This document shows positions 1,190 through 28,652 of a stretch of 41,629 nucleotides of DNA, piece after piece. The translations under genes were made by a program, and so were the position numbers. The notes under the pieces were generated by a model, which had not been told where the DNA came from, made no database searches, and saw only the letters and a list, made by a program, of their open reading frames with translations. This DNA is from an uncultured Ruminococcus sp. (GTDB lineage Bacteria; Bacillota; Clostridia; Oscillospirales; Acutalibacteraceae): contig CACWRT010000013.1 of the NCBI GenBank assembly GCA_902763365.1, forward strand, positions 1 to 41,629, read 5' to 3'. Position 1 is the stretch's first letter; each line of letters starts with the position of its first letter.

Positions 1190-1191
1190 TT

Positions 1192-1509
1192 TTATTCTCC
1201 TTTTATAAGTTTAATTGCATCCTCTTTACTTCTGCATACTCCGGCAATTGCACCGGCATTTTGCATAGCCTCAAGGAATTTTTTTTGTTTCGGGCTTAAT
1301 CTGCCCTTTGATGTTTTTACTTCAATAAAGAAAGCCCTGCCGTCACTTTCACGGAAACCAAATATATCGGAAAATCCAATCGGTACGCCGGTACTGAAAT
1401 ACCGACCGTCAGGAGTTTTCATTTTTCCTACATTCATACGGAATGATATGCACCCGGTTTCCGATAATGCAACCCGTATTTCGCTCATTATCCTGTGTTC
1501 TTCGGTCAA
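1192..1509 (-). CDS. VRR-NUC domain nuclease
   Basis: A 105-residue stand-alone VRR-NUC (PD-(D/E)XK superfamily) protein. The family signature is visible as GFSDIFG around D48, then FFIEVKT with E63 and K65, then a downstream Q75 in SPKQKKF. These are expected to bind metal and cut branched or single-strand-containing DNA. Such genes are usually next to helicases in phage replication modules, as here. The start is a TTG at 1509, preceded by AGAGGA eight bases upstream and overlapping the helicase stop codon; an internal ATG at 1488 is the alternative. It is probably translated by coupling to the helicase. Confidence 0.8.
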   Translation of the reverse strand: MTEEHRIMSEIRVALSETGCISFRMNVGKMKTPDGRYFSTGVPIGFSDIFGFRESDGRAFFIEVKTSKGRLSPKQKKFLEAMQNAGAIAGVCRSKEDAIKLIKGE

Positions 1510-2846
1510 CTTATCATTCCTCTTTTCTTTGCCTGATAATAAGCCCAGCCGGATTTATAGCCTTTTTTCTTTGCGTAGCTTAATAATTCCGAATAGCTGT
1601 TGCACTGATCGGGGCTGTCGTAGCTTAAAACAAAACCCTCGATTTTTTGTAAGACAGCCTGTTTTTCCTCTTTTATATCTCGTCTTGAACTTACCAAAAG
1701 ATTATCGCAGTAAGGACAAATCATAACTCTTTTACCCTTAACTACTGCCGGAAAAACACGAAAGCACTTATCACATTGAATTGTTTTTTCTTTATCATCC
1801 TGTTTTGTGTTTTTTTCCTGCTTCGGTCTGCCTTCAAGAGTCCACTGTCTGTCTGCATCGGGAAGTCCGAACCTTGCATAATTGCCTACATGGTCAATTA
1901 CAACTGCACGCTTCCCGGGCTTATAGCGCATACATCTCATTGACTGCTGTATGTACAATGTCAGAGACTTTGTAGGACGAAGCAGAATTGCACATTCACA
2001 GTCCGGTACATCAAAGCCTTCTGATATCAGATCTACATTGCACAAAATATCGATCTGTCCATTGCGGAACATTTCAATTATCCTGTCACGCTCAGGCTTT
2101 GGCGTTTCGCCGTCAATATGTCTTGCATCAATTCCGGCAGCGTTGAAAGCTTCAGCTATTGCAAGTGAATGCTTTACTGAAACACAATAACAGATCGCTT
2201 GTTTTCCGTCCGCAAGTTTTTTGTAATTTGATATAACATCACCGAAAATTGCTCTTTTCAGCATAATTTTTTCCGCTGACTTTGTATCAAATTCACCTCT
2301 GACTGTTTTTATCTCTGTCAGATCAACCATTGACGGCGCATAGTAATCATAAGGTGCAAGATAATGATTTTCTATCAGCCACTTTGCATTCACACCTATA
2401 ACAAGCTCGTCATTTACACCTTTAAGCCCGCTGCCGTCAAGCCTTACCGGTGTAGCGGTCACTCCAACACGGCGAGCATGAGGAAAAGCTTTATAGATTT
2501 TTATGTAGCTGTTTGCCTTGCTGTGATGGTTTTCATCGGTGATGATAAGTGCAGGGGGCTGTATTTTTTCAATATGTCTGCAAATCGTCTGAACCATACC
2601 TATTGTGCATAAATCCATATCAACACCCCATGTTTCAAAGGTGTTTCTGATCTGATCGCAAAGCTCTTTCCGGTGAACGATAAACAGAACTCTGTTTCCC
2701 TTTTGGGCCGTCCTTTTTGCAATTTCAGCGACAATTACAGACTTCCCGCCCCCGCAGGGAAGGACAATGCAAGGCGCTTGTCTGCCCTTCCTGTAGGCTG
2801 TTTTTACATCGTTTATGATATCGGTCTGATATTTACGAAGCGGCAT
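1506..2846 (-). CDS. DEAD/DEAH-box (SSL2-type) superfamily 2 helicase
   Basis: About 446 residues. A Walker A motif PCGGGKS sits at residues 30-36, a Walker B variant TDENHH in the first RecA-like domain, and SVTATP-like motif III as VGVTATPVRLDGSGL. The second domain carries the EGFDVPDC motif V and QQSMRCMR motif VI. A C-terminal CxxC pair spaced by about 20 residues (CDKCFRVFP, MICPYCDN) looks like a zinc ribbon. It would unwind or translocate on duplex DNA during element replication. The ATG at 2846 is chosen because GAAGAGGG stands six bases before it; the ATG at 2852 directly abuts that site. The start overlaps the end of the ATPase gene by 14 nt. Confidence 0.85.
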   Translation of the reverse strand: MPLRKYQTDIINDVKTAYRKGRQAPCIVLPCGGGKSVIVAEIAKRTAQKGNRVLFIVHRKELCDQIRNTFETWGVDMDLCTIGMVQTICRHIEKIQPPALIITDENHHSKANSYIKIYKAFPHARRVGVTATPVRLDGSGLKGVNDELVIGVNAKWLIENHYLAPYDYYAPSMVDLTEIKTVRGEFDTKSAEKIMLKRAIFGDVISNYKKLADGKQAICYCVSVKHSLAIAEAFNAAGIDARHIDGETPKPERDRIIEMFRNGQIDILCNVDLISEGFDVPDCECAILLRPTKSLTLYIQQSMRCMRYKPGKRAVVIDHVGNYARFGLPDADRQWTLEGRPKQEKNTKQDDKEKTIQCDKCFRVFPAVVKGKRVMICPYCDNLLVSSRRDIKEEKQAVLQKIEGFVLSYDSPDQCNSYSELLSYAKKKGYKSGWAYYQAKKRGMIS

Positions 2847-3702
2847 CTGCATCCCTCTTCGCTCTGAATTCCTTTGCAAAACAATGATAACAAAGTGTCT
2901 TTCCAAGCTGTTTCTGTCCTGCGTCAATGATCTGCTTTTCGCTTCTGCCGTTAAAGGCTGAAATTATCTTTTTACAGCTTTCGCATTTTACAGGTTCAGC
3001 ACCATTTTCAAGCCAGTTTTTAAGCTGTTGTCCCAGCTCAGGAGTTATTATCTGACCAAATCTGTCAAGGAACGTTGTATCTTTGCTTGCTGTTGCAATA
3101 TGATTTCTTGCAATATCAAGCACGATATCAAATTCATATTCCGTATCATCACGCTGAATGGGTGCAAGCCCTATCTTGACCGGTTCCATTTTACCCCTGT
3201 CATTCTGCTGCATGACATAATCCATTTTTGAGCGCATTGTAACAATGGTATGACAGTCTACTGCAAGTATGGTATTGATAAGATCATTCTGAAATCTGCC
3301 TGCTTCATTCCATGCGGTATAGCTGTTTTTGCCGGGACGTTCGGCAATTTTATCTTTGATATCAAGCACACCGCCCTCATTGTTCCATGCATGGGAAAGG
3401 CTGTCAATTATTACAACACCGTCTGTTCCTACCGTTTCGGCAGCTTCATATACAAGCTGTTTGTAGCGTTCCGGACTGTAGGGCGGAGAAAACGGTGCAT
3501 AATAAAAGCTTCCTGTTCCTAAGTCTTCACGGTCCGCATAAAACCTTGCTCTCTCATGTTCGGTGTCGATAAGGACAATCTTGTCCCAGTCTCCGGTCAT
3601 GCCGTAAGCTATGTACAGTGCGGAAAGCGTTTTTCCCGCACCGCTTACGCCTGTCAGGGCGAGACGGAGCTTGGCCTTTTTTCTTGTTACTTTTTCAAGC
3701 AT
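2833..3702 (-). CDS. Sak4-like AAA/RecA-core phage ATPase with C-terminal zinc ribbon
   Basis: This 289-residue protein starts with a P-loop, GVSGAGKT at residues 18-25, followed by IDTEHERARFYAD and a Walker B strand GVVIIDSLSHAWN. This is the pattern of phage nucleotide-binding proteins of the Sak4 type, single-domain relatives of RecA that act in single-strand annealing recombination with an SSB partner. The C-terminal 60 residues add CESCKK and CYHCF, a likely zinc ribbon. Its operon partners here (DUF669, helicase, VRR-NUC, Gp157) fit a recombination and replication cassette. The RBS ACGGAGGTAATACA is strong. It ends 14 nt inside the helicase start. Confidence 0.75.
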   Translation of the reverse strand: MLEKVTRKKAKLRLALTGVSGAGKTLSALYIAYGMTGDWDKIVLIDTEHERARFYADREDLGTGSFYYAPFSPPYSPERYKQLVYEAAETVGTDGVVIIDSLSHAWNNEGGVLDIKDKIAERPGKNSYTAWNEAGRFQNDLINTILAVDCHTIVTMRSKMDYVMQQNDRGKMEPVKIGLAPIQRDDTEYEFDIVLDIARNHIATASKDTTFLDRFGQIITPELGQQLKNWLENGAEPVKCESCKKIISAFNGRSEKQIIDAGQKQLGKTLCYHCFAKEFRAKRDADAAS

Positions 3703-3721
3703 TGTATTACCTCCGTTTTTT

Positions 3722-3735
3722 TGAAAGTACTTTCA
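3722..3735. repeat. Perfect 14-bp palindrome upstream of the Sak4-like gene
   Basis: TGAAAGTACTTTCA is a perfect palindrome in the only longer intergenic gap of the early operon (3703-3792). It lies about 20 bp upstream of the start of the Sak4-like gene. It could be an operator or an RNA element; no promoter hexamers of good quality are seen next to it, so function is unknown. Confidence 0.4.
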
Positions 3736-3792
3736 TCAGTTAAACCAAAAGATTTATTTTTTTGACCTCGAAAAGTTAATTTCCCGAAAAAA

Positions 3793-4233
3793 TCACTTTA
3801 TAATTAGACTCTGAGTCCTGTCAAGCTTTGCGCCGGGCAGATTATTCCCGGCTTTCAGCTCTGTTCTGACCTTGGATTTATATATCGTTGGTTCACCGTA
3901 ATTCAGCAGGTGCGGCGCATTTATCTTCGCCCATGTGATAAAGCCCTTTTCGCTGACAAACTGCGCTGATTCCGCATTGTTCCGGACTGATATCTTTGCT
4001 TTCGGCATATCAATTTTTGTCCGCTTTGTCTTCTGCATACAGTCAAGCAGATAGGTTTTCATCCGCTCCAGCTGATTTTCCTTAGCTTTGCGTCTGCGTT
4101 CAAAGGCTGCTTTTTGCTTTTTCAGCAATTCAAGATCACCCTCAAGCTGTTTGATAAAGCAGGCTATGTTCTCAGCCTTCATATCAAATTCGCCCTCGAT
4201 GCCGTCAAGGGTATCAAACCATGCTGTCTGCAT
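3793..4233 (-). CDS. Siphovirus Gp157-like coiled coil protein, 5' end apparently frameshifted
   Basis: The 146 residues match the Gp157 family of small phage proteins: IEGEFDMKAENIACFIKQL then a long charged coiled coil (EGDLELLKKQKAAFERRR) and a C-terminal beta region with KISVRNN. Members are usually found beside Sak4-type or other recombination genes, as here. The first ATG in this frame, at 4233, has no good ribosome site. The same frame stays open upstream to a TGA at about 4355 and encodes INSFDAIADYEPDT and more. An ATG with a proper GAGGAG site at 4357 starts MKLYD, the usual family beginning, but hits a stop after five codons in another frame. One base inserted or two lost near 4345 would join them, so this is a real or sequencing frameshift. 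Confidence 0.7.
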   Translation of the reverse strand: MQTAWFDTLDGIEGEFDMKAENIACFIKQLEGDLELLKKQKAAFERRRKAKENQLERMKTYLLDCMQKTKRTKIDMPKAKISVRNNAESAQFVSEKGFITWAKINAPHLLNYGEPTIYKSKVRTELKAGNNLPGAKLDRTQSLIIK

Positions 4234-4368
4234 TTCCGCTTTGTATGCGTCAATGTCGGGGATGATATTGCCGTCATCATCTATGTACTGACCGTCCTCG
4301 TTCGTATCGGGCTCATAGTCAGCTATTGCATCGAAGCTGTTAATCGTAAAGTTTCATTTTCATTCTCC

Positions 4369-5355
4369 TCACATGATGTCACAAAGGTTATTGTCAAAAG
4401 AGTCAATCATTTTATCTATTGCCTTTGTATATTCTTTATCACTGCCGATACTTTTTACAAACTCTATAAGCATAGCATAGGCATTTCTTACTATGCTGCA
4501 ATAGGCTTCAAATACTTCCCTTGTAGCAGGAACTTCAACGGTTTCAACTTCGGCCTTATATGCAGCATTTTCAAGCTGTTCACGAAGGGCATTTATTTCC
4601 TTTTGGTACTTTTGGCGGATGCGGTTCTGTTCGTTTGCATTCTCCTGAGCTATTTCGGAAAGCTGCCTGTCAAGATTTCTTACCGCTGCCTTTGCATTTT
4701 TAAGTTCATAGGAAGTATCCGTTCTTTCCATTTCGGTAATGGTTTCTCTTGCATGTTCAAGCTCGGCTCTTAGACGTTCGTTTTCCTGCTGCACCTGCAT
4801 ATCCTCAACAACGGTTATAGGCTGGTGTTCAAGCTCAGTTATCCTGTTTTTGGCAGCGTCAAGGTCGTGAGTCAGACTGCGGTTTTTGCTTTTTACCGAC
4901 AGAAGATCAGTTTCGGCAGACATGCGCCGCTGACGTTCGTTTTCTGCCCTTTGCTCGGCTGACTCATTATCCTCTTTCAGCCTTGCAATTTCCTCTTTAA
5001 GCTTTCGGACGGATATATCCTCAACATTGACATTCTGCTGTATTTCTTCCTGCTGAGACTCGGAAAGGGATGCAAGAAGGGAAAGCTTTGTAATGCCAAA
5101 ATGTTGAATCGATTCAACATTTTTGATTTCTAAAATGTCGGTATACTTGTATGCCATATGTCTTGAAATACCTACTTCATTCTCGCAGTAGTCCTCAAAA
5201 CTGGTATAGCCAAGCTCTCTGTAAAGCTTTTCATCCCTCATTTTCTTGAGCATACAGCACATTTTAAAAAGATTCTGCTGTGCCATCTGTGCGGTAAAGA
5301 TTATTTTCTGATTCAGCTCCGCTGCTGTTTTATATTGTGTGCTTAACTCGTTCAT
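4369..5355 (-). CDS. DUF3102-like phage protein with long coiled coil
   Basis: A 328-residue protein. The N-terminal 110 residues contain KLYRELGYTSFEDYCEN followed by VGISRHMAYKYTDIL, a helix-turn-helix-like pattern common in phage and ICE proteins of the DUF3102 type. Residues about 120-290 form a long heptad-rich coiled coil rich in E, R, K and Q. The last 45 residues are a helical cap. The protein is likely a structural or DNA-binding scaffold in replication or partition; its role is not known. It ends 12 nt before the ATG of the Gp157 reading frame and starts 11 nt after the preceding gene stops, so it belongs to the same operon. The RBS is GAGGAAGATA. Confidence 0.65.
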   Translation of the reverse strand: MNELSTQYKTAAELNQKIIFTAQMAQQNLFKMCCMLKKMRDEKLYRELGYTSFEDYCENEVGISRHMAYKYTDILEIKNVESIQHFGITKLSLLASLSESQQEEIQQNVNVEDISVRKLKEEIARLKEDNESAEQRAENERQRRMSAETDLLSVKSKNRSLTHDLDAAKNRITELEHQPITVVEDMQVQQENERLRAELEHARETITEMERTDTSYELKNAKAAVRNLDRQLSEIAQENANEQNRIRQKYQKEINALREQLENAAYKAEVETVEVPATREVFEAYCSIVRNAYAMLIEFVKSIGSDKEYTKAIDKMIDSFDNNLCDIM

Positions 5356-5366
5356 TATCTTCCTCC

Positions 5367-5717
5367 TCAGCTGTAGACCAGTGACCGGGCGATATCGTAG
5401 ACAACAGCAATACCACTGTCACAGCCGATATCAATATCTTTTGTGTATCCGTTTTCGTATGTAACTCTTGCAGCCACCCTCATGTATACCTGATTTCCCA
5501 CAGGCTCAGTCACAAGAAAAATGCTGACTATGTTTTTTCCCCTGTCGGTTAGCTTCAAGGTTTCGCAAAAGCTTTTAAGTATTTCCGTCATATTTTCAGA
5601 ATGACTATTGATTTTTTCCTTGTTTGCGGATATAATATTCTCAGGAAGATTATTTATATCCTTTTCCGTTGCCGGTATTGCAGTACCGACAGCGGATTTT
5701 TCTTTTGTACTGTTCAT
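5367..5717 (-). CDS. Hypothetical phage protein
   Basis: I do not recognise this 116-residue protein. The N-terminal 40 residues are polar and probably disordered; from about residue 40 it has an alpha-beta pattern (MTEILKSFCETLKLT, IVSIFLVTEP, VYMRVAARVTYENGY). No signal peptide or membrane segment. A good AGGAGG site precedes the ATG, and it sits 11-12 nt from both neighbours in the early operon. The codons for residues 8-16 (SAVGTAIPA) lie in a stretch (5671-5695) almost identical to a palindromic segment found between two genes at 10487-10512. Confidence 0.55.
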   Translation of the reverse strand: MNSTKEKSAVGTAIPATEKDINNLPENIISANKEKINSHSENMTEILKSFCETLKLTDRGKNIVSIFLVTEPVGNQVYMRVAARVTYENGYTKDIDIGCDSGIAVVYDIARSLVYS

Positions 5718-5729
5718 TTGTAAGCCTCC

Positions 5730-5996
5730 TCAATACTTGCTCTTCCATGTTTTTTCATCAGCTCTGATGAATTCACTGTATGCCATAACTTCCTCTGTAA
5801 GCTCGTCAAGAAAGTAAACATAAAACTTCCTGTCCGGCTCCTGAAACTCATCACCTGTACAGTCGAACACCATTCCGAATTTATATCCCGAATAGTGTTG
5901 TTGAAGCCATGTGTAGACCTCATCAATGTTCTTTACTCCGGAGAATACGAACATACTCCGTCCGTATCTGTCCGTTTTGTCTTCAAACACTTTCAT
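5730..5996 (-). CDS. Small hypothetical phage protein
   Basis: An 88-residue protein without recognised domain, beginning MKVFEDKTDRYGRSMFVF. It looks like a compact alpha-beta fold with many aromatic residues and an acidic character. The ribosome site ATGAGGTAATTT is well placed before the ATG. The next gene follows after 12 nt. Upstream it is separated from the 6043 gene by a tract of imperfect heptamers (6006-6040). Confidence 0.55.
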   Translation of the reverse strand: MKVFEDKTDRYGRSMFVFSGVKNIDEVYTWLQQHYSGYKFGMVFDCTGDEFQEPDRKFYVYFLDELTEEVMAYSEFIRADEKTWKSKY

Positions 5997-6005
5997 AAAT
6001 TACCT

Positions 6006-6040
6006 CATTGTACATTGAACATTGCACATTGTACATTGAA
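6006..6040. repeat. Imperfect heptamer tandem repeat
   Basis: Five degenerate copies of a TACATTG/AACATTG/CACATTG word lie head to tail between two early phage genes. They occupy the whole gap upstream of the ribosome site of the 5730-5996 gene. The style is the same as other word repeats in the chromosomal part of the window, though the word is different. Confidence 0.7.
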
Positions 6041-6042
6041 TT

Positions 6043-6237
6043 TCACGCCATCCCGTCAAGCATCAGCTTGTCATTGTAGTTGATGTAGCCCACAGACCAC
6101 AGCCAGCTTGTAGCCTTGTACACCGGCACTCCTGTTGCTTTCAGGCGGTCCGCTATATGTCTGACTGTATCGGCAGGCTCAAGGTATGCTTGTCTGATCG
6201 CCTGTTTCTGTTCTTTTGTAAGTTCCTGTATGCTCAT
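6043..6237 (-). CDS. Small helix-turn-helix-like phage protein
   Basis: A 64-residue protein. TKEQKQAIRQAYLEP followed by TVRHIADRLKATG and VYKATSWLWSVGY resembles a short winged or trihelical DNA-binding domain, so a transcription role is plausible but not shown. Its ATG overlaps the TGA of the upstream HTH gene in an ATGA arrangement, a sign of translational coupling. The RBS is GGAGAGGA. Confidence 0.5.
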   Translation of the reverse strand: MSIQELTKEQKQAIRQAYLEPADTVRHIADRLKATGVPVYKATSWLWSVGYINYNDKLMLDGMA

Positions 6238-6491
6238 TGTTCCTCTCCGATCTCGTATCCCTCTCTTCCGAGAAGGTAGTCTGCGCTGACTCCGAAGTAA
6301 TCAGCTATTTTCAACAGGTTCTCAGCTCCCGGTAATGCTTCACCCTGTCGGTAGCTATTCATCGCACTCGTGCCTATGCCTGCATCGTGAGCCATTCTGC
6401 GGTAACTCAGTCCCTGCACCTCATAAGCCGAAAACATCAGCTGTCTGAGCCTTTTACAGAAGGGATGTTCTCTGTATTTTCTTTCATACAT
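6234..6491 (-). CDS. XRE-family helix-turn-helix regulator
   Basis: This 85-residue protein contains a Cro/CI-type HTH: LSYRRMAHDAGIGTSAMNSY covers helices 2 and 3 and is followed by ADYFGVSADYLLGRE, the typical XRE ending. It lacks an extra domain, so it is a small regulator of phage genes. A GTGTGAGGGG sequence, which also ends the upstream gene, lies right before the ATG. It is 4 nt downstream of the 6496 gene and coupled to the 6043 gene. Confidence 0.75.
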   Translation of the reverse strand: MYERKYREHPFCKRLRQLMFSAYEVQGLSYRRMAHDAGIGTSAMNSYRQGEALPGAENLLKIADYFGVSADYLLGREGYEIGEEQ

Positions 6492-6495
6492 CCCC

Positions 6496-6696
6496 TCACA
6501 CCTGCCTTATTCTCGCAGCGTCAAAGCCCCTGCCGATGTTCATGACGATCTCGTCTTTGGCGCTCCTTTTCGGCTTTACCGGCATTGCGTCACGCTCCGC
6601 CTGCAAGAATTTGATGATCTTCTCGTAGTCTGACTTGCTGTTCAGCGATGCATCCATCCTTATCCCGCTGTCTGTCTTTATCTTTATGTATCCCAT
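6496..6696 (-). CDS. Small hypothetical phage protein
   Basis: A 66-residue basic protein (MGYIKIKTDSGIRMDASLN), N-terminal beta strands then a helix (SDYEKIIKFLQAERDAM) and a lysine- and arginine-rich tail. I do not recognise a family. The RBS GAGAGGAGAAG is strong. It stands at the head of a tight four-gene cluster with the XRE gene. The 59 nt upstream of its start, to the next gene at 6756, show nothing else convincing. Confidence 0.45.
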   Translation of the reverse strand: MGYIKIKTDSGIRMDASLNSKSDYEKIIKFLQAERDAMPVKPKRSAKDEIVMNIGRGFDAARIRQV

Positions 6697-6755
6697 TGTT
6701 TTTCTTCTCCTCTCGTATTAACCACACTGCAAGCAATAAATCCTGCCTTTTCCGT

Positions 6756-6950
6756 TTATGCTGTTTCATCCTCACCATGCTTTTCAGCATTTTTCTGCTT
6801 TATCAGCTGTTCATACAGGTAATTGCTGTAGATCTTGTTGCAGTTGCGCTGTATCTGATCAAACTCTTCCTTTGTCTTTACAACACAGCTGTCGTCAATA
6901 AAGGACATTCCTTTATGTTCACCATGACTCATCGACATTACTATTGCCAT
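6756..6950 (-). CDS. Small hypothetical phage protein
   Basis: A 64-residue protein beginning MAIVMSMSHGEHKGMSFIDD. The start at 6950 is preferred to 6971 because AAAGGGG is seven to eight bases before it. The C-terminal half is helical and polar (KEEFDQIQRNCNKIYSNY). No family recognised. It follows the zinc-ribbon gene after 17 nt. Confidence 0.45.
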   Translation of the reverse strand: MAIVMSMSHGEHKGMSFIDDSCVVKTKEEFDQIQRNCNKIYSNYLYEQLIKQKNAEKHGEDETA

Positions 6951-6967
6951 AAAAGCAACCCCTTTCA

Positions 6968-7132
6968 TCAATTATTATGCTTTCTCCTGCTCCTGCATAC
7001 CGGGCATATGTAGTATTCGTACTTGTCAAATTTACTGACGTTCCACTCCGTCCCGCAGTACATGCAGGTTTTGTATGCTGCGTCAGGTTTCTTCTTTGGT
7101 TTCAATTCTGTTGAGTTTCCTTTCCAATTCAT
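6968..7132 (-). CDS. Small zinc-ribbon protein
   Basis: About 54 residues from the ATG at 7132 (MNWKGNSTELKPKKK). CMYCGTEWNV and YICPVCRSRRK give two CxxC knuckles about 20 residues apart, a zinc ribbon. Small proteins like this in phage early regions often bind DNA or RNA polymerase, but no specific role can be assigned. The gene overlaps the end of the 7083-7529 gene by about 50 nt in another frame. Confidence 0.5.
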   Translation of the reverse strand: MNWKGNSTELKPKKKPDAAYKTCMYCGTEWNVSKFDKYEYYICPVCRSRRKHNN

Positions 7133-7529
7133 TATTCCGATTTTCGTAAAACTCCCGCCAGTACACTTCATAACCTAAAGCTTCATCATAAAGCCGTCTG
7201 TAGAGTTCGTCAAAATCAAGGCTGTCACCCATAAGGATACTTCTGAGCGTTCTCAGCTTGTCTTCAACCTCGCTGAAAAAGTCATTATTAAGTCCTGCTT
7301 TTTTAAGCTGTTCATCATGCAGTGATGAAGCGTTCCATATATATTCTGTGTAGTAGCTGTCCTGCAAGCAAAGCAACAGATCTATCGCTTTGTTAAGCCT
7401 GCCAAGCAGTAATACACATTCAAGCGGTTTGTTCGCTTCGGGCATATCGCAATTAAATGAATATTTGCGGCGAAAGTCCCGGTTAGCTTTATCGATCTGC
7501 TTCTGAATGTTTTCAGGTTCTCTGCTCAT
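7083..7529 (-). CDS. Hypothetical helical phage protein
   Basis: A 148-residue, mostly helical, acidic protein (NIQKQIDKANRDFRRKY at the start, DFFSEVEDKLRTLRSIL in the middle, ENRNNELERKLNRIE at the end). No known domain seen. The RBS GGGGGTGAAAGC belongs to a recurring junction sequence (stop GTGTGA then GGGGGTGA) also found before other genes of this operon. It lies 12 nt after the antirepressor. Confidence 0.5.
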   Translation of the reverse strand: MSREPENIQKQIDKANRDFRRKYSFNCDMPEANKPLECVLLLGRLNKAIDLLLCLQDSYYTEYIWNASSLHDEQLKKAGLNNDFFSEVEDKLRTLRSILMGDSLDFDELYRRLYDEALGYEVYWREFYENRNNELERKLNRIETKEET

Positions 7530-7541
7530 GCTTTCACCCCC

Positions 7542-8345
7542 TCACACTGCCACTTTTTGATTATTTTCTATAAGCGGAAGGATGCCCTGTTCTTTCAGCA
7601 GGTCATATATAAACAGTCTGCCTTTCTGCGTCCAGTAGGTATGTACCTTTGTATGTACATTACCATCATTTCCGTTGTAGGTCTGAGTTTTGGTGCTTGT
7701 ATATCCCTTGTCAGCATACTTCTGATAGAGAAGCCAGATCTTACTTCCCTGCTTAAACTGTATGCCCAGCTCATGGAGCTTTTCATTTAGCCATCTGCCC
7801 GACTTGCCGTAGTCCTTTGCAATCTCGGTTATAGACACAAGGTCCTTACAGTTAAGTACAACATCATAGTAGCTTGCCTTTGGTTTCAGCTCGGATATCT
7901 GCTGATTTTGTACTGCTACCGTTTCCGTGAGCTTCTTTGTTTTCTCCCTCTCCTCTTTCAATGCTGTCAGTGCCTTTATTGCTAAATCAGGATTTTCAAT
8001 AAGCTCATCCATTGCATACATTCCATGCCTTCTGATCGAGGGAAGTACCTCGCTTGTCACCCAGTGCTTGAACTCTTTAGCTTTCGGAAGCTTGCTTGAA
8101 AGTATCAGGCTGTACAGTCCGCTTTCGTTGATTAGTGTTGCACCTCTCTGACCAAAACTCGGCGACGATTTGTCGTTGAGTTTTTTATCTTCATCATCAC
8201 AGTGCATTGCTATGGCTTTGTTTGTATCACTGTATCCCAGCACCTCAGCCACGTCTTTACCCACAAAGTATGGTGTACTGTCAATTTCCACCGTCCGGAT
8301 ACTGCCGAACTCAGCGTTCTCGAAGATTTTCAGTTCGCTGTTCAT
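7542..8345 (-). CDS. Phage antirepressor, BRO-N plus KilAC (ANT) domains
   Basis: A 267-residue protein. Residues 1-100 are a BRO-N domain (IRTVEIDSTPYFVGKDVAEV, LGYSDTNKAIAMHCDDEDK, then NESGLYSLILSSKLPKAKEF). Residues about 150-255 are a KilAC/ANT domain with a winged-helix pattern (SITEIAKDYGKSGRWLNEKL, then TYWTQKGRLFIYDLL). Such proteins oppose the phage repressor or regulate early genes. The start at 8345 is set by GAGGAGGAAATTAAA just before the ATG. It follows the Cro-like gene and a 48-residue ORF in the first early transcript, exactly where an antirepressor is expected. Confidence 0.9.
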   Translation of the reverse strand: MNSELKIFENAEFGSIRTVEIDSTPYFVGKDVAEVLGYSDTNKAIAMHCDDEDKKLNDKSSPSFGQRGATLINESGLYSLILSSKLPKAKEFKHWVTSEVLPSIRRHGMYAMDELIENPDLAIKALTALKEEREKTKKLTETVAVQNQQISELKPKASYYDVVLNCKDLVSITEIAKDYGKSGRWLNEKLHELGIQFKQGSKIWLLYQKYADKGYTSTKTQTYNGNDGNVHTKVHTYWTQKGRLFIYDLLKEQGILPLIENNQKVAV

Positions 8346-8364
8346 TTTAATTTCCTCCTCGATC

Positions 8365-8511
8365 TCACTTTCCGTTTTTTTCGCCGAAGTCTTCAGCAAA
8401 CATTTGTTCTGCAACATCAATTATCTGTTTGCGTTTTTCCGGCGAGAGCTTTGTTCTTGGATTAGTGAATATCACATAATCATCTTCTTTTTGGGTATCT
8501 GCTTTACTCAA
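8365..8511 (-). CDS. Short 48-residue ORF between Cro-like and antirepressor genes
   Basis: Starting at TTG 8511, with GGGGGTGAGGAAG directly upstream, this frame encodes MSKADTQKEDDYVIFTNPRT and ends with DFGEKNGK at a TGA 19 nt before the antirepressor start. It is polar with a C-terminal helix (LSPEKRKQIIDVAEQMFAED). The gene spacing and the ribosome site, of the same type as that of its neighbours, support it as real. Function unknown. Confidence 0.5.
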   Translation of the reverse strand: MSKADTQKEDDYVIFTNPRTKLSPEKRKQIIDVAEQMFAEDFGEKNGK

Positions 8512-8524
8512 CTTCCTCACCCCC

Positions 8525-8755
8525 TCACACCGCTACTTCGTGGCTGATTGCTTTGCTATTTGTATCTGATGCGAACAGATATTCAATTCTGTATGGACGG
8601 AAAAACTTATCTCTGATCTTAAACGCTTCGCTTATAGTAAACTCGGTTTCTCCGTTCAACTTATTGATAACAGTTCTGTCTGAACAACCTAATAACTGCT
8701 TGATATCAAGGTTACTCACGCCGTATCTTGCCATTTCTGCTGCTAAGTTCCTCAT
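8525..8755 (-). CDS. Cro-like helix-turn-helix protein
   Basis: This 76-residue protein is the first gene of the leftward early operon, divergent from the repressor. MARYGVSNLDIKQLLGCSDR then TVINKLNGETEFTISEAFKI fits the Cro/CI HTH. Its position opposite the repressor across a shared operator region indicates the Cro role, which is inference from layout. RBS GGGGGGTGA. The transcript would start from the promoter at 8813-8841. Confidence 0.75.
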   Translation of the reverse strand: MRNLAAEMARYGVSNLDIKQLLGCSDRTVINKLNGETEFTISEAFKIRDKFFRPYRIEYLFASDTNSKAISHEVAV

Positions 8756-8784
8756 TGTTATTTCACCCCCCTATTAAAATTCAA

Positions 8785-8876
8785 ATTGCCCTTATGTGCA
8801 ATCTGTATTGTAATTATATATCCTCTACAGGCAAATGTCAATATCTTTTTTGAACTTTTTTTCCTTTACGTGCAAT
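8785..8876. promoter_or_regulatory. Three operator-like repeats in the lysogeny switch
   Basis: Three related 14-bp words lie in the same orientation: CCCTTATGTGCAAT (8789-8802), CCTCTACAGGCAAA (8822-8835) and CCTTTACGTGCAAT (8863-8876). The first is part of a dyad, ATTGC-8 nt-GCAAT, at 8785-8802. The second sits inside the early promoter and the third just upstream of the repressor promoter. They are the best candidates for binding sites of the 8936 repressor and the Cro-like protein. Confidence 0.65.
8813..8841 (-). promoter_or_regulatory. Early leftward promoter of the element
   Basis: On the minus strand TTGACA (8836-8841) is followed by exactly 17 nt and TATAAT (8813-8818), a perfect vegetative promoter. 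It reads into the Cro-like gene with a leader of roughly 50 nt. Operator-like repeat 2 (8822-8835) fills its spacer, so a bound repressor would block polymerase. Confidence 0.85.
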
Positions 8877-8882
8877 TTTTTA

Positions 8883-8911
8883 TTGACATTTATTGCATAA
8901 TGAATTATCAT
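8883..8911 (+). promoter_or_regulatory. Repressor promoter
   Basis: TTGACA (8883-8888), 17 nt, TATCAT (8906-8911), one mismatch from consensus in the -10 box. It reads into the repressor gene, whose ATG is 25 bp further on after GGGGGAGGTG. Confidence 0.75.
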
Positions 8912-8935
8912 AAAATTATGGGGGAGGTGAAATAA

Positions 8936-9307
8936 ATGTGGTTAGATAAACTCAGACAGATGAAGAAAGAAGCTGGAAAGACTTCACAAATGATATCTGA
9001 TGAAACTGGTATCTCTAAAAGTACAATTGACAAGCTTCTTACAGGCAGAACAAAAGACCCAGCTCTTTCAATGGTAAAATCTATTGTACATAGTTTAGGT
9101 TATACTCTTGACGATCTTGATGATACAAAAAAAGATATCGTCTTCACTAATAATAGTGAAGGTGATATCCATAAGCAAAAACTATTAGAAAATTATGATT
9201 TACTGAATGAAAACGCTCAGCACACCTTAGTAGAATACTCTGAATTCATGGTGTCTAAGCGTGAAAATTTAAAAGACAATTATAATTGTGATAAAATGAA
9301 TGCATAG
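8936..9307 (+). CDS. Phage repressor, XRE-family HTH
   Basis: A 123-residue protein. SQMISDETGISKSTIDKLLT (residues 17-36) is the helix-turn-helix, and the domain ends at about residue 65. The rest is a short helical segment (LLENYDLLNENAQHTLVEY), likely for dimerisation. There is no LexA/S24 peptidase and no ImmA-like metalloprotease neighbour, so induction is probably through the antirepressor and not RecA-driven self-cleavage; that is inference. It is the first rightward gene and reads away from the early operon. Strong RBS GGGGGAGGTG. Confidence 0.8.
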   Translation: MWLDKLRQMKKEAGKTSQMISDETGISKSTIDKLLTGRTKDPALSMVKSIVHSLGYTLDDLDDTKKDIVFTNNSEGDIHKQKLLENYDLLNENAQHTLVEYSEFMVSKRENLKDNYNCDKMNA

Positions 9308-9312
9308 AAAAA

Positions 9313-9345
9313 GCCGCTCCCAAAGCTGCGACCTTTGAAAGCGGC
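9313..9345 (-). terminator. Hairpin after the repressor gene, U-tract on the minus strand
   Basis: GCCGCT (9313-9318) pairs with AGCGGC (9340-9345), and CAAAG with CTTTG inside. On the minus strand the stem is followed by TTTTTC, so it would stop leftward transcription, for example read-through from cotJ. On the plus strand no U-run follows, so it is only a weak terminator for the repressor. Confidence 0.5.
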
Positions 9346-9396
9346 AAATGAAAGATTGATTTTCGGAAATCTCAAACCTTTCAATAATATTATAGC

Positions 9397-9427
9397 GTGA
9401 TATATCTGCTATGTCAAGGTATATCAC
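9397..9427. promoter_or_regulatory. 8-bp dyad upstream of the OB-fold membrane protein gene
   Basis: GTGATATA (9397-9404) and TATATCAC (9420-9427) are perfect inverted arms separated by 15 nt, about 25 bp before the ATG at 9453. The spacing suits a regulator binding site or an RNA hairpin; no match to the three switch operators. Confidence 0.45.
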
Positions 9428-9452
9428 CTAAAAAATGAAAGGATGTATCATT

Positions 9453-10466
9453 ATGAACAATCAGCAACCACAGTATTATCAGCAACCACCCCAACCACAA
9501 AATTTTCAGCAACCACCTCAGCCCCCCAAAAAAAAGCTAAAAACATGGCAGATTGTGCTTATTGTAATTGGAGTTATTCTGGTTCTGGGGGCAATTGCTA
9601 ATGCAGGCGACAGTCCGGAAAATAACCAAACAAGCGTTGCTTCTTCTAATCCTGACAAAAGCCTGTCTTCTTCTGCCGTATCAGTGTCTGAAGCAGACTA
9701 TGAAGCAGTTGATTATCTATTGGTTTATAATAATCAATCAGAATACAAAGGAAAAAATGTAAAAATTTGTGGGCAAATAAATTCCATTGATACAAATATT
9801 ACAAATGTAACTTACATTACGTTTAAGGATGGTCTCTCAGGATTAACAGGTGAAATTTATTGCAATATAGCCGAAGCAGACGGCGAAAAAGTTAAATCCG
9901 AGTACAAAAAGGGCGATTACGTAGAAATCGGCGGAAAAGTCGGTGACTTTACTTTAAAAACTCTAAGTATAGATGAATGTCATGTATTTTCAAGCGGTGA
10001 TGACGTTAAGAAAAAGATAAAAAATTATAAAAAGCAATCTGAGGAAAAAGAAGCTTCAAAAGAAAAAGAAGCTTCAGCAGAAGCTCAGAAAAGCAAAGAT
10101 GAGTTTATTAAAGAATGTCAATCATATACCTACAAAGAGATAGCTCGTAATCCTGATAATTATAAAGGTAAAAAGGTTGTGTTTGAAGGACATGTTGTTC
10201 AGACTATGGAAAGCGGCAATAAGGTTGTAATGCGTGTTGATGTTACAAAAGAAGCTAACGAATTTGCAAGCGGCGGTTATCTTTACAGCGATACTGTTTA
10301 TGTTGAACATACAAGAAAAAGTGACAGCGAAAGTCGTATTTTGGAAGACGATATTATAAAAATGTACGGTACTTTAAACGGTACAAAAACTTATGATTCT
10401 GTTTTAAAAGCAAATATTACTATTCCATATTTACTTGCAGAATATATTGACATTATTTCTGAATAA
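9453..10466 (+). CDS. Membrane-anchored protein with predicted tandem OB-fold (tRNA_anti-like) domains
   Basis: About 337 residues, starting at ATG 9453 after AAAGGATG. Residues 1-27 are Q- and P-rich, with repeated QQPPQPQ-like words. A single membrane helix follows (WQIVLIVIGVILVLGAIANA, about residues 33-52), then a serine-rich linker. Two similar soluble regions each start with YKGKNVKICGQI or YKGKKVVFEGHV and look like OB-fold domains, separated by a charged coiled segment (KEASKEKEASAEAQKSKDEF). It would be outside the cell or at the membrane surface. Lying between repressor and recombinase, it is likely expressed in the lysogen, which suits a lysogenic conversion or exclusion role; this is inference. 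Confidence 0.65.
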   Translation: MNNQQPQYYQQPPQPQNFQQPPQPPKKKLKTWQIVLIVIGVILVLGAIANAGDSPENNQTSVASSNPDKSLSSSAVSVSEADYEAVDYLLVYNNQSEYKGKNVKICGQINSIDTNITNVTYITFKDGLSGLTGEIYCNIAEADGEKVKSEYKKGDYVEIGGKVGDFTLKTLSIDECHVFSSGDDVKKKIKNYKKQSEEKEASKEKEASAEAQKSKDEFIKECQSYTYKEIARNPDNYKGKKVVFEGHVVQTMESGNKVVMRVDVTKEANEFASGGYLYSDTVYVEHTRKSDSESRILEDDIIKMYGTLNGTKTYDSVLKANITIPYLLAEYIDIISE

Positions 10467-10484
10467 TTCGTAAAAAAATCGCCC

Positions 10485-10592
10485 CCGCCGGTATTACCAG
10501 TACCGACAGCGGCAGGAGCTGTACTCTAAATATGCTTTGAAAAAACCTGTATTCATATTGTAGCACAGCTCCGAGAAAATTGCAAGGAGCTG
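10485..10592 (+). promoter_or_regulatory. Possible two-state RNA leader controlling the recombinase
   Basis: A stem-loop (CCGC/GCGG outside, CGGTA/TACCG inside) occupies 10485-10512. Next, segment A GGAGCTGT (10515-10522) is complementary over 8 bp to segment B ACAGCTCC (10565-10572). B is also complementary over 7 bp to segment C GGAGCTG (10586-10592), which holds the recombinase ribosome site AAGGAG (10584-10589). B-C pairing would hide the site, A-B pairing would expose it. The alternative pairing is visible; regulation is inferred. Confidence 0.5.
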
Positions 10593-10597
10593 ATATC

Positions 10598-12160
10598 ATG
10601 TCATATTGTATTTATCTGCGTAAATCCCGTGCTGATGCAGAAGCAGAAATGCGTGGCGAAGGAGAAACTCTCGCACGTCATGAAAAACTGCTTACGGAAT
10701 TTGCAAGACACAACCATTTTGAAGTTACAGCTATATACCGTGAGATAGTCAGCGGTGAGACAATAGCCGCCCGTCCTCAGATGCAGCGTCTGCTGTCAGA
10801 AGTCGGAAGCGGTATGTGGGATGGTGTTATTGTCATGGATATCGACCGTCTCGCAAGAGGAAACAGCATAGATCAGGGCATCATCTCTCAGACTTTTCTT
10901 TATGCAAATACAAAAATAATTACTCCTGCAAAGACATATGATCCGAATAACGAGTTTGACGAAGAATACTTTGAATTCGGACTGTTTATGTCAAGACGGG
11001 AATACAAGACCATAAACCGCCGTCTGCAAAGAGGCAGGATCGCCAGCGTAAAGGAAGGAAAATATGTCAGCAACAAAGACCCGTACGGCTTTAAGCGTAC
11101 TAAAATAGAGAATGACAAAGGTTATACGCTTACTGTAATACCCGAGCAAGCCGCTGTTATAAGATGTATTTTTGAATGGTATACGAAAGGTCTGCCGCTG
11201 TCTGACGGAACAAGAAAACCTATAGGTGTTTCGCTCATTGCAAGAGAGCTGAACGACAGAGGCGTAAAAGCTCCGAGAGGTGAAGTCTGGACTTCTGTTA
11301 CTATAAGAGATATGCTTATAAATCCTGTCTATGAAGGGAAGATACGCTGGAACTACCGCCCCACAAAAAAGAAAATGATAGACGGCAAGGTTTATGAAGA
11401 ACGTCCGAGAAGCAACGATTATCTTTTATGTGACGGCTTGCACGAAAAAATTGTTTCCGAAGAAATGTTCAAAGCCGCTGCCGACAAAATGAACAAAAAC
11501 AAAAAACGCCCCTACAGAAGCGACAAAAAGCCGAATAATCCTCTTGCAGGGCTTGTAATATGCAAAAAATGCGGACGCAGAATGCAGCGCAGACCAAATC
11601 CGAAAAATCCTGATCTTCTCATGTGCAGCGAACCTACCTGTGACAACCATGCTTCATATTTGTATCTTGTTGAAAAACATGTTATTGAAATTCTTGGTGG
11701 ATGGTCACAGGGATTTAACATAGAGGGTGCTACAGATACGGTGATTGTCCCCGATACGACAAGTCTTATAAATGAGATCGCAGCCCTGCGCAAAACTCAT
11801 ATAAAACTTAATTCACAGCTTGACAAGACATTTGAAGCTTTTGAAACAGGTGTATATGATGCAGATACCTTCAAGAACCGCAGCAGTGTTATAAAACAGC
11901 GGCTATATGAAACGGAAAGCAAGGTAAACGAGCTTGAAGACAGTCTGAAAAAGGCAGAAGAAAATGACAGGATAATAAGAGAATTTATCCCGAAAGTAAA
12001 AAGGTTTACCGAGACATACGACACTCTTACGGATGCACAAACAAAGAATTTTATGCTCAGTGAAATAGTAGATCATATTGACTATATCAAGAAAACAAGA
12101 GGTCACGGGCATGAGGAAGAATTCAATATTACCATATATCCCCGTCTCCCAAAAGTATAA
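10598..12160 (+). CDS. Large serine recombinase (integrase/excisionase of the element)
   Basis: A 520-residue site-specific recombinase. The resolvase catalytic domain begins MSYCIYLRKSRADAEAE, with the nucleophile S10 in YLRKS, and continues through DGVIVMDIDRLARG. The recombinase domain follows (KEGKYVSNKDPYGFKRTK, then ARELNDRGVKAPRGEVWTSV). A zinc ribbon is seen as CKKCGRR and MCSEPTCDNH, then a coiled coil of about 70 residues (ETESKVNELEDSLKKAEEND), the part that governs integration versus excision. Start at ATG 10598; the in-frame TTG at 10580 is unlikely. The gene lies directly beside the attachment site in cotJC. Its ribosome site is in a hairpin. Confidence 0.95.
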   Translation: MSYCIYLRKSRADAEAEMRGEGETLARHEKLLTEFARHNHFEVTAIYREIVSGETIAARPQMQRLLSEVGSGMWDGVIVMDIDRLARGNSIDQGIISQTFLYANTKIITPAKTYDPNNEFDEEYFEFGLFMSRREYKTINRRLQRGRIASVKEGKYVSNKDPYGFKRTKIENDKGYTLTVIPEQAAVIRCIFEWYTKGLPLSDGTRKPIGVSLIARELNDRGVKAPRGEVWTSVTIRDMLINPVYEGKIRWNYRPTKKKMIDGKVYEERPRSNDYLLCDGLHEKIVSEEMFKAAADKMNKNKKRPYRSDKKPNNPLAGLVICKKCGRRMQRRPNPKNPDLLMCSEPTCDNHASYLYLVEKHVIEILGGWSQGFNIEGATDTVIVPDTTSLINEIAALRKTHIKLNSQLDKTFEAFETGVYDADTFKNRSSVIKQRLYETESKVNELEDSLKKAEENDRIIREFIPKVKRFTETYDTLTDAQTKNFMLSEIVDHIDYIKKTRGHGHEEEFNITIYPRLPKV

Positions 12161-12215
12161 GTTTTACTGATATCTTGTTGGGTTGTATTCTTCCACACCC
12201 ACATCCGTCAAAACT
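12150..12215. other. Predicted attR junction of the element within cotJC
   Basis: Read on the minus strand, cotJC matches its family up to the two GAA codons at 12188-12193 (residues GVEE), after which the expected LAHLE or FAHLE is replaced by YNPTRYQ and a stop. The recombinase stop is at 12160. The crossover must therefore be close to 12185-12190, with the left part of the att site from the element and the right part from cotJC. The core dinucleotide cannot be fixed without attL or the empty site. Confidence 0.75.
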
Positions 12216-12382
12216 GCTTTTACTTCGGGGTATGGCACGCTGTATCTTTGGCTGAGATATCTGAGTGATGCTCCAAGCTCTCCATCAGGACCGCCGTACT
12301 GAGTTATAATAATTTTAGCGAGGGCGGGGTTAGGCTGTTTTATATTAACGGGGTACTGCAGTTTCTTCTCATATACAAACAT
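12164..12382 (-). pseudogene. cotJC: cotJC, 5' fragment interrupted by the element
   Basis: The first 65 residues match CotJC, the manganese-catalase-like (ferritin superfamily) spore coat protein of about 190-200 residues: MFVYEKKLQYPVNIK, IITQYGGPDGELGASLRYLS and LTDVGVEE. The last seven codons and the stop come from element DNA. The metal-binding glutamate and histidine that normally follow (AHLE) are missing, so the fragment cannot be an active enzyme. The rest of the gene should lie at the far left end of the element. A good AGGAGG site precedes the ATG, and it follows cotJB by 3 nt. Precise excision would restore the gene. Confidence 0.85.
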
Positions 12383-12385
12383 TTC

Positions 12386-12634
12386 TCAGACCTCCTCATT
12401 ATTCCACGGCCACGGATCGGCTATCCATGCCCAGCGGCTGCCTTCTTCCGATACTCTCAGCGGGCCGAATCTGCTTTCAAATTCTTTGCGAAGGTCATTG
12501 CTCTGCTCCTCATACTTTTTAAACGCCTTTCCTGCTGCTTTATCGTCGGGGTGTGTGTCAAGGTATACATGAAGCTCATGGGCGGCAAATTCTACTGCCG
12601 ACAGCTTTCTCAGAAGCTTTTCACGTTCTGTCAT
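12386..12634 (-). CDS. cotJB: Spore coat protein CotJB
   Basis: An 82-residue protein with the CotJB pattern: LLRKLSAVEFAAHELHVYLD then THPDDKAAGKAF and the C-terminal WAWIADPWPWNNE. CotJB helps assemble CotJA and CotJC into the spore coat. The ATG at 12634 is favoured over an upstream start because AAGGAGGGGAAA precedes it and it overlaps the TGA of cotJA (ATGA), so translation is coupled. The gene is intact. Confidence 0.92.
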   Translation of the reverse strand: MTEREKLLRKLSAVEFAAHELHVYLDTHPDDKAAGKAFKKYEEQSNDLRKEFESRFGPLRVSEEGSRWAWIADPWPWNNEEV

Positions 12635-14082: not shown

Positions 14083-14958
14083 TCATACTTTTTTCCAGTC
14101 GGGGATGTCCCTGACCTCTTCATACATACGGACATAGCTTTTGTGACGTGTGGGCATTATCTTTCCTTCGGCTACGGCGGCTATGACCGCACACCCTTTT
14201 TCACAGACATGGGAACAGCCTGTAAACTGACAATCATTTCTGTACTGCTCAAAATCCGGAAAACAATCTGCAAGACCGTCTTTGCGTATTATCTCATACC
14301 TCTCAATATCTACAGTAGAAAAACCGGGAGTATCAGCGACATATCCTCCTCCGACATGATACAGCTCACTGGAGCGTGTGGTATGTCTGCCTCTTCCTAA
14401 TTTTTTGCTTATCCCGCCTGTTTCTATGGAAAGCCCGGGGATAAGACTGTTCAGCAAGGTGGACTTTCCTACTCCCGTATTGCCTGTGAATGCGGATATC
14501 TTCCCGCTTAGCAGAGAGAGTATCTCATCTTTTCCGCTGTTATCCTCTGTACTGCACGTAAATGCGCGGAAACCCGATCTTGTGTATATTTCTGCAAGCT
14601 CCTGCGCACTCTCAAGGTCTGTCTTTGTGAATACCAGCACAGGCTCAATATCCTTGCTGACGGCTACTGCGCATATTTTGTCTATCACAAATGTATTAGG
14701 CGAGGGCTGTGCTGCCGAGGATACTATGAACAGCCTGTCAAGGTTCGCCAGCGGCGGTCTTACAAGATAATTCTTTCTCGGCAGTATATTCTCTACCTGC
14801 GCTTTGTCTTCATCTGTAAGGCTTATCTCCGCTCTGTCACCCACTGCCGGACTTATCCCCCTTTTGCGGAATATCCCCCTCGCTTTACATTCGTATACTC
14901 TGCCTGCGGACTCAACATAGTAGAATCCACTTATCGCTTTTATTATTAATCCTTCCAT
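14083..14958 (-). CDS. rsgA: Ribosome small subunit biogenesis GTPase RsgA
   Basis: A 291-residue circularly permuted GTPase that tests maturation of the 30S decoding centre. An OB fold covers residues 1-70; the permuted G motifs appear as TKTD (G4), GNTGVGKS (G1) and DTPGF (G3), and a C-terminal zinc knuckle reads CQFTGCSHVCEKGC. Start at ATG 14958; an in-frame GTG is at 14967. The only plausible ribosome site (AAAAAGGG, 8 bases upstream) is in the 35-bp tandem repeat just upstream. It is at the downstream end of the prkC gene cluster, its usual neighbour in Firmicutes. Confidence 0.95.
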   Translation of the reverse strand: MEGLIIKAISGFYYVESAGRVYECKARGIFRKRGISPAVGDRAEISLTDEDKAQVENILPRKNYLVRPPLANLDRLFIVSSAAQPSPNTFVIDKICAVAVSKDIEPVLVFTKTDLESAQELAEIYTRSGFRAFTCSTEDNSGKDEILSLLSGKISAFTGNTGVGKSTLLNSLIPGLSIETGGISKKLGRGRHTTRSSELYHVGGGYVADTPGFSTVDIERYEIIRKDGLADCFPDFEQYRNDCQFTGCSHVCEKGCAVIAAVAEGKIMPTRHKSYVRMYEEVRDIPDWKKV

Positions 14959-28572: not shown

Positions 28573-28652
28573 TGTCATTCCGAGCGTAAGCGAGGGATCT
28601 TTTCCACAAATGAAACTTTATCGCAAAGATTCCTCACTTCGTTCGGAATGAC
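28573..28652. repeat. REP-like palindromic element, copy 1
   Basis: TGTCATTCCGAGCGTAAGCG then AGGGATCTTTT on the left, AAGATTCCTCACTTCGTTCG then GAATGACA on the right: imperfect inverted arms about 30 nt long around an AT-rich centre. A diverged copy is at 36471-36554. No gene is inside. Confidence 0.8.

Follow-up and report, generated by a model that had tools for sequence, protein, structure and literature searches.

The 41,629-nucleotide stretch of DNA analysed here (the window, from contig CACWRT010000013.1 of assembly GCA_902763365.1, an uncultured Ruminococcus sp.) carries a cotJ spore coat operon whose last gene, cotJC, is interrupted by an integrated element with a large serine integrase gene. 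The operon lies on the minus strand and comprises cotJA (12867-12631), cotJB (12658-12386) and then only the first 64 codons of cotJC (12382-12190), with the crossover placed in codon 65. Positions 12164-12382 (minus strand) gave a match to the Pfam Mn_catalase profile at positions 1-67 of 284 (E 4e-19), which broke off after GVEE, directly ahead of an (A/G)HLE motif. Past this point, cotJC reads into the 3' end of the convergent integrase gene (10598-12160, plus strand). The family profiles of CotJB and CotJA were covered at positions 1-76 of 76 and 2-35 of 35, respectively. The first-pass annotation of this DNA, made from the letters alone, had described a break of CotJC after some 65 residues and before its AHLE motif, intact cotJA and cotJB, and a large serine recombinase close to the junction; profile matches and the end of the integrase open reading frame (ORF) at 12160 bore out all three.

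Attachment Sites and the Missing Half of cotJC

The host genome searched comprised 3.31 Mb in 211 contigs and was 99.4% complete. It contained only two Mn_catalase matches, namely the 5' part in the window and a second one on contig C88 (11079-11450, minus strand), which covers profile positions 62-198. The window holds one end of the element only, and the cotJC 3' half, which had been predicted, is present but sits on this separate contig. No intact cotJC copy, which had been named beforehand as refuting an interruption, was found anywhere in this genome.

Read in the sense of cotJC, the left junction is gtgggtgtggAAGAAtacaacCCAACAAGATATCAGTAAAA and the right junction is TTTTACTGATATCTTGTTGGaactaAAGAActagggcatctgg. 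Both have in common the five bases AAGAA (TTCTT at 12188-12192 of the window), and their phage arms are exact 20-bp inverted repeats, found at 12162-12181 in the window and at 11446-11465 of C88; the integrase gene stops 2 bp short of the arm at 12162. The symmetry of the arms places the central dinucleotide at 12189-12190, GA in cotJC sense, and the phage attachment site (attP) reconstructed about this GA showed 21 symmetric pairs out of 28. Among 312 swapped-partner controls, in which 5' and 3' junctions of different genomes broken at the same site were combined, none reached at least 21 pairs, and the two window halves scored at most 17 in 26 pairings with foreign partners. The bacterial attachment site (attB) joined in silico, DVGVEELGHLEMIGAIVYQL, reads as open, uninterrupted CotJC. 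Moreover, the proposed comparison with related genomes revealed the empty site in two congeners (G214 and G280), where cotJA, cotJB and cotJC are intact and stand side by side. The recombinase, the attL and attR junctions and the 3' half expected of an element interrupting cotJC are all present and mutually consistent.

Since the host genome is a 211-contig draft with the two halves on C13 and C88, contigs of mixed organisms or a chimeric junction, produced by assembly or binning, might mimic a split gene. This explanation is extremely improbable, since the exact inverted arms and the common core extend across both contigs, a sister phage described below joins both ends, and the same kind of split occurs on single contigs elsewhere, namely in the one-contig genomes G007 and G247, in G054 and G279, and on the chromosome of Clostridium carboxidivorans P7.

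The Integrase and the Prophage

The integrase, assigned to class B1, contains the Pfam domains Resolvase, Recombinase and Zn_ribbon_recom, matched the PHROG integrase family with an E value of 3e-101, and has the SPbeta integrase SprA/YokA (9dxh, E 5e-38) as its nearest solved structure. Its catalytic serine, in the motif YLRKSR, was invariant in 15 relatives. From 12189 down to position 1, the window represents the integrase-end part of a prophage whose remainder lies on other contigs, and all genes recognised there with PHROGs are of phage type. They include a repressor-like helix-turn-helix protein (8936-9307, plus strand), an anti-repressor with Bro-N and KilAC domains (7542-8420, minus strand) and a set of early genes (641-4233, minus strand) coding for a single-stranded DNA-binding protein, a nuclease of Holliday-junction-resolvase type, a helicase, an AAA protein (AAA_24) and a Gam-like protein.

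A sister viral contig (L185, 36,289 bp, G357) encodes an integrase 89% identical to that of the window and matches positions 247-12192 in blocks of 79-96% nucleotide identity, the long ones at 83-88%. Right after its integrase gene, L185 carries an uninterrupted attP, of which 46 of 56 bases agree with the attP predicted for the window, followed by a homologue of the endolysin end of C88 (60% identity over 89 residues). It also carries terminase, portal, capsid, tape measure and endolysin genes, and host contigs C119, C175, C123 and C157 contain stretches 70-78% identical to this structural half. As the ends found in the window and on C88 are matched on one phage contig, the element probably represents a complete tailed phage. 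The exact search of viral contigs for the window's own attP arms returned no match.

Other observations concern the surroundings of the integrase. Between the repressor and integrase genes, positions 9435-10466 encode a phage protein that gave tRNA_anti-like and DUF1980_C (OB-fold-like) matches, with an N-terminal membrane segment predicted by eye. Just upstream of the integrase start, a GC-rich hairpin at 10480-10530 is followed by a run of T on the minus strand, as judged by eye, and similar hairpins precede the integrase gene in loci L106, L108 and L172. This hairpin may end cotJ transcripts running antisense through the integrase gene; the terminator scan of the window did not list it. Outside the element, a repeat of about 80 bp at 28573-28652 (minus strand) recurs in some twenty host contigs, with 77-85% likeness where long, and once in the sister phage (L293, 16889-16969). 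Rfam, applied at the gathering threshold, gave no match in the window.

Relatives of the Window Integrase

Relatives of the integrase were collected from a 15-sequence alignment, taking the best 80 of 540 confirmed genome-contig matches and the best 80 of 247 viral-contig matches. With the CotJC profile, 73 of the 160 loci proved to contain a cotJC piece; in 71 of the 73 the boundary falls at the window's break point, and six show both halves. Among loci with at least 250 bp of sequence past the integrase, a cotJC piece lay within 700 bp of it in 52 of 76 genome and 13 of 46 viral loci, and for loci with less than 250 bp the counts were one of four and five of 33. An attP-like palindrome (at least 15 of 24 pairs) was present in 28 of the 58 loci without a cotJC piece, compared with 4.1% of shuffled sequences.

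Among the named hosts in which a cotJC piece was seen are Caproiciproducens galactitolivorans BS-1 and YR-4, Clostridium sp. D33t1, C. carboxidivorans P7 and Alkaliphilus transvaalensis, together with several uncultured Ruminococcus genomes. Judged by the closest integrases, the host of the window, too, is probably a gut bacterium resembling Ruminococcus. In C. carboxidivorans P7 (L159), a second, full-length CotJC-like gene was observed near the split one, at 14136-14711. The class-B1 integrase adjoins the cotJC 5' half in the window, L041 and L044, and the 3' half in L037-L040, L042 and L049, so that different members of the lineage seem to have inserted at the B1 site in opposite orientations.

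Break Sites in cotJC Across the Family

Of 300 genomes surveyed within the family, 229 had a CotJC match and 56 were examined closely, most of them picked for a partial best match or an integrase hit, together with some intact ones. Pieces were counted from the intervals of 54 genomes (two of the 56 had no match), and three short paralogue-like matches were ignored. At least 46 of the 300 genomes carried two or more partial cotJC pieces, including seven with three and two with four, a count to be taken as a lower bound and not as a rate. The breaks recur at five sites. Site A lies at codon 31, between YGG and P, with the core GG; site B2 at codon 62, between DIG and T, with a core GG or GT that is not settled in all cases; site B1, that of the window, at codon 65, between EE and L, with the core GA; and site C at codon 136, between AAE and QK, again with the core GA. 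Site D, at about codon 175 and after HYQRFGE, was seen in G125, G149, G255 and G067, whose 3' tails lie elsewhere, as do those of G314, G319, G336 and G354. These sites fall at the most conserved motifs of CotJC, which aligns with Mn catalases, and presumably these motifs include metal ligands of the latter.

When the two sides were joined, 28 of 30 analysed junction pairs read straight through as CotJC. The exceptions were site B of G106, which holds two elements, and site C of G149, where two codons are missing at the chosen centre. Symmetry of at least 16 of 28 attP pairs was reached by 17 of the 30 junctions, compared with 45 of the 312 swapped-partner controls. A separate integrase lineage belongs to each of the sites A, B2, B1 and C, with 37-64% identity inside a lineage and about 19-30% from one lineage to another, and these integrases stand inside the element, usually at its junction. 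In the 61 genomes of the window's genus, 11 had a copy reaching profile position 197 or more, three stopped at the D site (position 190), two of them with the tail elsewhere, and 17 had two or more complementary pieces; in the others, either a single piece was present, frequently at the end of a contig, or there was no match at all (10). These genus counts were made by eye, with G302 and G326 left out as ambiguous and G319 standing in both groups.

The most elaborate arrangement was found in G106, where the cotJC pieces follow one another on a single contig, C23, at 86646, 90757, 111517 and 134320, with integrases of classes A, B2, B1 and C between them. The four elements thereby stretch a gene of some 610 bp across 47.8 kb. 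An 11-nt micro-exon, GGTACAGAAGA (L065:9774), which codes for GTEE and whose flanks match the B2 and B1 arms by eye, separates the B2 element from the B1 element. A single element at site B of G106 and of G080 had been considered and fitted poorly (symmetry of 10-11 of 28, and a joined frame that stops in G106); in both genomes the left end at this site is of B2 type and the right end of B1 type. A piece of the 11-nt type was not found in G080, in which the contigs examined do not connect. The congener G206 has only A-type and B1-type splits and is orthologous to G106 in the A element and the B1 integrase; the B2 and C elements were either gained in G106 or lost in G206.

Cargo was read from ORF sequences, mostly without a profile test. 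Besides phages, it comprises an element resembling integrative and conjugative elements (G149, site C), islands of glycan-type genes (G007), transporter genes (G247) and SbcCD-like genes (L167), and the site-B2 element of G271 (L083, 2678-12597) carries a Cas9-Cas1-Cas2-like set and a repeat array beside the integrase. Short elements of 2.3-3.9 kb occur in G119, G279, G127, G215 and C. carboxidivorans, and all of them still keep the integrase.

Selection on Split cotJC

Split genes of related genomes were compared by synonymous divergence (dS) and by the ratio of nonsynonymous (dN) to synonymous divergence. G119 and G279 have a common 2.3-kb element at site A, and both its flanks and its integrase gene can be aligned between them at 77-80% DNA identity. 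Their integrases are 71% identical and themselves constrained (dS 1.12, dN/dS 0.18), the second ORF of the element is not conserved, and the two cotJC pieces show dN/dS of 0.058 and 0.052 at dS of 0.93 and 1.12. Similarly, the pieces of G106 and G206 have dN/dS of 0.009-0.036 at dS of 1.1-2.2. The constraint in these two pairs indicates that selection maintains the pieces as a functional gene, and so long-lasting a split together with such constraint would be hard to explain without restoration. For G067 and G255 the pieces gave dN/dS of 0, 0 and 0.027 at dS of 0.24-0.55, and the B1 integrases differ by a dS of only 0.03, so that this insertion is younger or has moved. The long cotJC piece of G125 and G217 gave a dN/dS of 0.085, and dS was saturated in G191/G264 and several other pairs.

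These data bear on the possibility that cotJC is an ordinary prophage attachment site, that is, a conserved but dispensable gene whose lysogens live without CotJC and with no programmed restoration. A Bacillus subtilis strain lacking CotJC is cited in PMC12122855 as having no apparent spore defect, and five different sites in one conserved gene would fit a general liking of such elements for conserved DNA. Nevertheless, in split genes inherited in common the pieces stay in frame and constrained (dN/dS of 0.05 at dS of about 1 in G119/G279, and likewise in G106/G206), the 11-nt micro-exon was kept, and the reduced elements retain their integrase, all of which makes an ordinary attachment site quite unlikely.

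Directionality Factor Candidates and Promoter Motifs

Excision by serine integrases is assisted in known cases by a recombination directionality factor (RDF). The RDF candidate of the window is a small ORF at 6756-6971 (minus strand, 60-70 amino acids), which joined a small-ORF family with an E value of 3e-8 after iteration. Of the 121 class-B1 loci with at least 3.5 kb upstream, 107 have a member of this family antisense to the integrase, and in 78 of these it lies within 3 kb. One member is among the four ORFs of the C. carboxidivorans element, another adjoins the right end of the B1 element of G106, and class B2 has a different small gene immediately upstream of its integrase. The candidate gave no match in Pfam and no significant match in PHROG. 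A PDB search with a 14-row candidate alignment returned 24 weak matches, the best being 5ap8 (E 0.0012, 23 positions), and none was taken as meaningful.

The motif ATAGGACAA was detected in 19 of 119 regions upstream of class-B1 candidates, with 0.2 expected and none in antisense, and was mostly followed about 12 bases on by an ATA box (18 of 119, expected 0.17). Pairs of sigma-E-like and sigma-K-like elements occurred upstream of 10 and 11 of 111 candidates, the shuffle maxima being 5 and 5. The same motif also stands before a divergent small ORF in the site-A element of G103 and upstream of the A integrase of G127, and variants of it occur in the site-A elements of G119 and G279. As a control signal on the candidates this promoter-like motif is suggestive only. 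It may be akin to SpoIIID boxes, for which the support is loose. Simple sigma-E patterns were also tried and not used, having occurred upstream of six of 82 class-B1 integrases (shuffled mean 1.9, maximum 5), none of six class-A integrases and one of 39 cotJA genes (shuffled 0.9).

According to PMC5025042, the SpoIIID consensus of Clostridioides difficile is KRTAACARK, and control by sigma-E and SpoIIID acts on the RDF and not on the recombinase. Among the host sporulation genes searched (Spo0A, SigE and SigK), Spo0A_C was matched with an E value of 5e-46 and SigE with 344 bits (cut-off 339), and SigK was matched at the subfamily level (277, cut-off 252) but under the SigK equivalog cut-off.

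It might be supposed that excision occurs by phage induction or at random, free of sporulation control, and that the gene persists through those cells in which the element has been lost or excised. The sister phage with its free attP fits this supposition, as do the excised forms of the yin element of C. botulinum reported at all time points in PMC10747680. However, random excision alone leaves the long common descent of immobile 2.3-kb remnants unexplained, each cell would have to undergo several unlinked events where a gene holds three or four elements, and the frequency of ATAGGACAA before the candidates far exceeds expectation. Taken together, these points leave uncontrolled excision unlikely as an explanation.

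Proposed Mechanism

The observed insertion with its att sites and in-frame halves, the phage contig with a free attP, the recurrent insertions and the constraint in two pairs are brought together in the following account, with which the matches to Spo0A, SigE and a SigK-type sigma factor in the host genome and the small ORF conserved beside the integrase also agree. A temperate tailed phage has integrated by its SprA-like serine integrase into the attB in cotJC, at codons E64-E65 and before the H-x-x-E motif. The integrase and a small directionality factor would then recombine attL with attR, the phage leaving as a circle with attP and cotJC being rejoined exactly and in frame, as is seen for the frame joined in silico. 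By analogy with the precedents, the forespore would keep the prophage and the mother cell would make the coat protein. As the mother cell, in which cotJC acts, is terminal, the lineage would lose nothing by excision in it, and the same logic may have made cotJC a repeated landing site in Clostridia, for which the sequences show five sites, at least four integrase lineages and up to four elements per gene.

We hold with considerable confidence that a prophage resides in cotJC and is excised exactly by its integrase and a directionality factor, restoring cotJC in the mother cell, and that such insertions are recurrent in Clostridia. Within this reading, what we infer is that integrase and RDF carry out the excision, that this takes place in the mother cell, and that CotJC is needed. 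Restoration of cotJC by mother-cell excision appears favoured by the purifying selection on the split genes of relatives, the recurrent in-frame splits and the precedents.

Several points weigh against it. The argument for excision is drawn from sequence, and the middle of the prophage lies on contigs without proven linkage to the window. The window's RDF candidate is a weak match to its family, and no promoter-like motif was found upstream of it, a lack of any sporulation-type signal that agrees with excision at random. In the species of the window compared with intact congeners, dS is saturated and dN, at 0.08-0.13, is somewhat higher than the 0.05-0.07 between intact congeners. The attP symmetry was not above control in 13 of the 30 junctions, so that the exact core assigned to those 13 is provisional. 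Finally, 30 of the 58 integrase relatives without a cotJC piece, about half, lack an attP as well, so that some integrases of the window's type may use other sites.

A further-reaching reading, to which we give an even chance, is that cotJC would, throughout a large clade of Clostridia from the gut, be a split gene assembled by DNA splicing at five sites, in some species through up to four precise mother-cell excisions and including the 11-nt micro-exon, synchronised by a common promoter type on the directionality-factor genes of unrelated elements.

With the present analysis, a coat gene joins the few sporulation genes known to be split by phages, and one small gene emerges as a repeated target, with five sites, several integrase lineages and up to four elements at once. 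It makes testable, in harmless hosts that can be cultured, the question of whether such elements merely tolerate sporulation or whether their hosts come to rely on DNA being excised in order within a dying cell. Moreover, it provides att sites and candidate directionality factors for new serine integrases whose targets are natural ones, and advises that cotJC fragments in gut spore-formers receive no pseudogene label before the other half has been searched for.

Comparison with Known Systems

The element of the window, whose excision during sporulation is predicted, is best filed with the sporulation gene-intervening elements, such as skin, SPbeta and yin. SPbeta, located in spsM of B. subtilis, with the integrase SprA/YokA and the RDF SprB, is likewise a phage splitting a mother-cell gene, and its integrase is of the same large serine kind as that of the window. 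Its target is spsM and not cotJC, and its precise excision is known to restore spsM (PMC4191935), whereas restoration of cotJC is deduced. The skin element, in sigK of B. subtilis and C. difficile (RDF CD1234), is also a serine recombinase element in a sporulation gene, with recombinase and RDF (PMC5025042), and is described as prophage-like, with no particles produced (PMC13141910). By targeting a sigma factor, skin can time sporulation; cotJC, in contrast, is a coat gene. Elements in sporulation genes are also represented by yin in yabG (C. botulinum) and gin in gerE (Bacillus cereus), with a short core with inverted repeats or a short overlap; gin is a non-phage island, like several of the cotJC elements. 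Both occur as one element per gene, in genes other than cotJC.

The nearest reported case for cotJC itself is the prophage phi027 of C. difficile, which lies beside cotG, a CotJC-like gene, adjacent to it and not inside (PMC11222575, PMC12122855). No report of an insertion inside cotJC was found in the open-access collection searched, which lacks most subscription papers, in agreement with the first-pass remark that cotJC is not a textbook integration site.

Where a single gene holds several elements, the closest parallel is offered by the nif interruption elements of heterocyst-forming cyanobacteria, which likewise involve a terminal cell type and recombinase elements, several per gene, with four in nifD of Rivularia PCC 7116 (PMC4874684). 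They belong to another phylum and cell type, and only one gene with four elements is known among them; the cotJC sites differ in integrase lineage. Gene-intervening elements of sporulation are already known as a class, and what is new is cotJC as a target and the multi-site, multi-element interruption of a spore gene.

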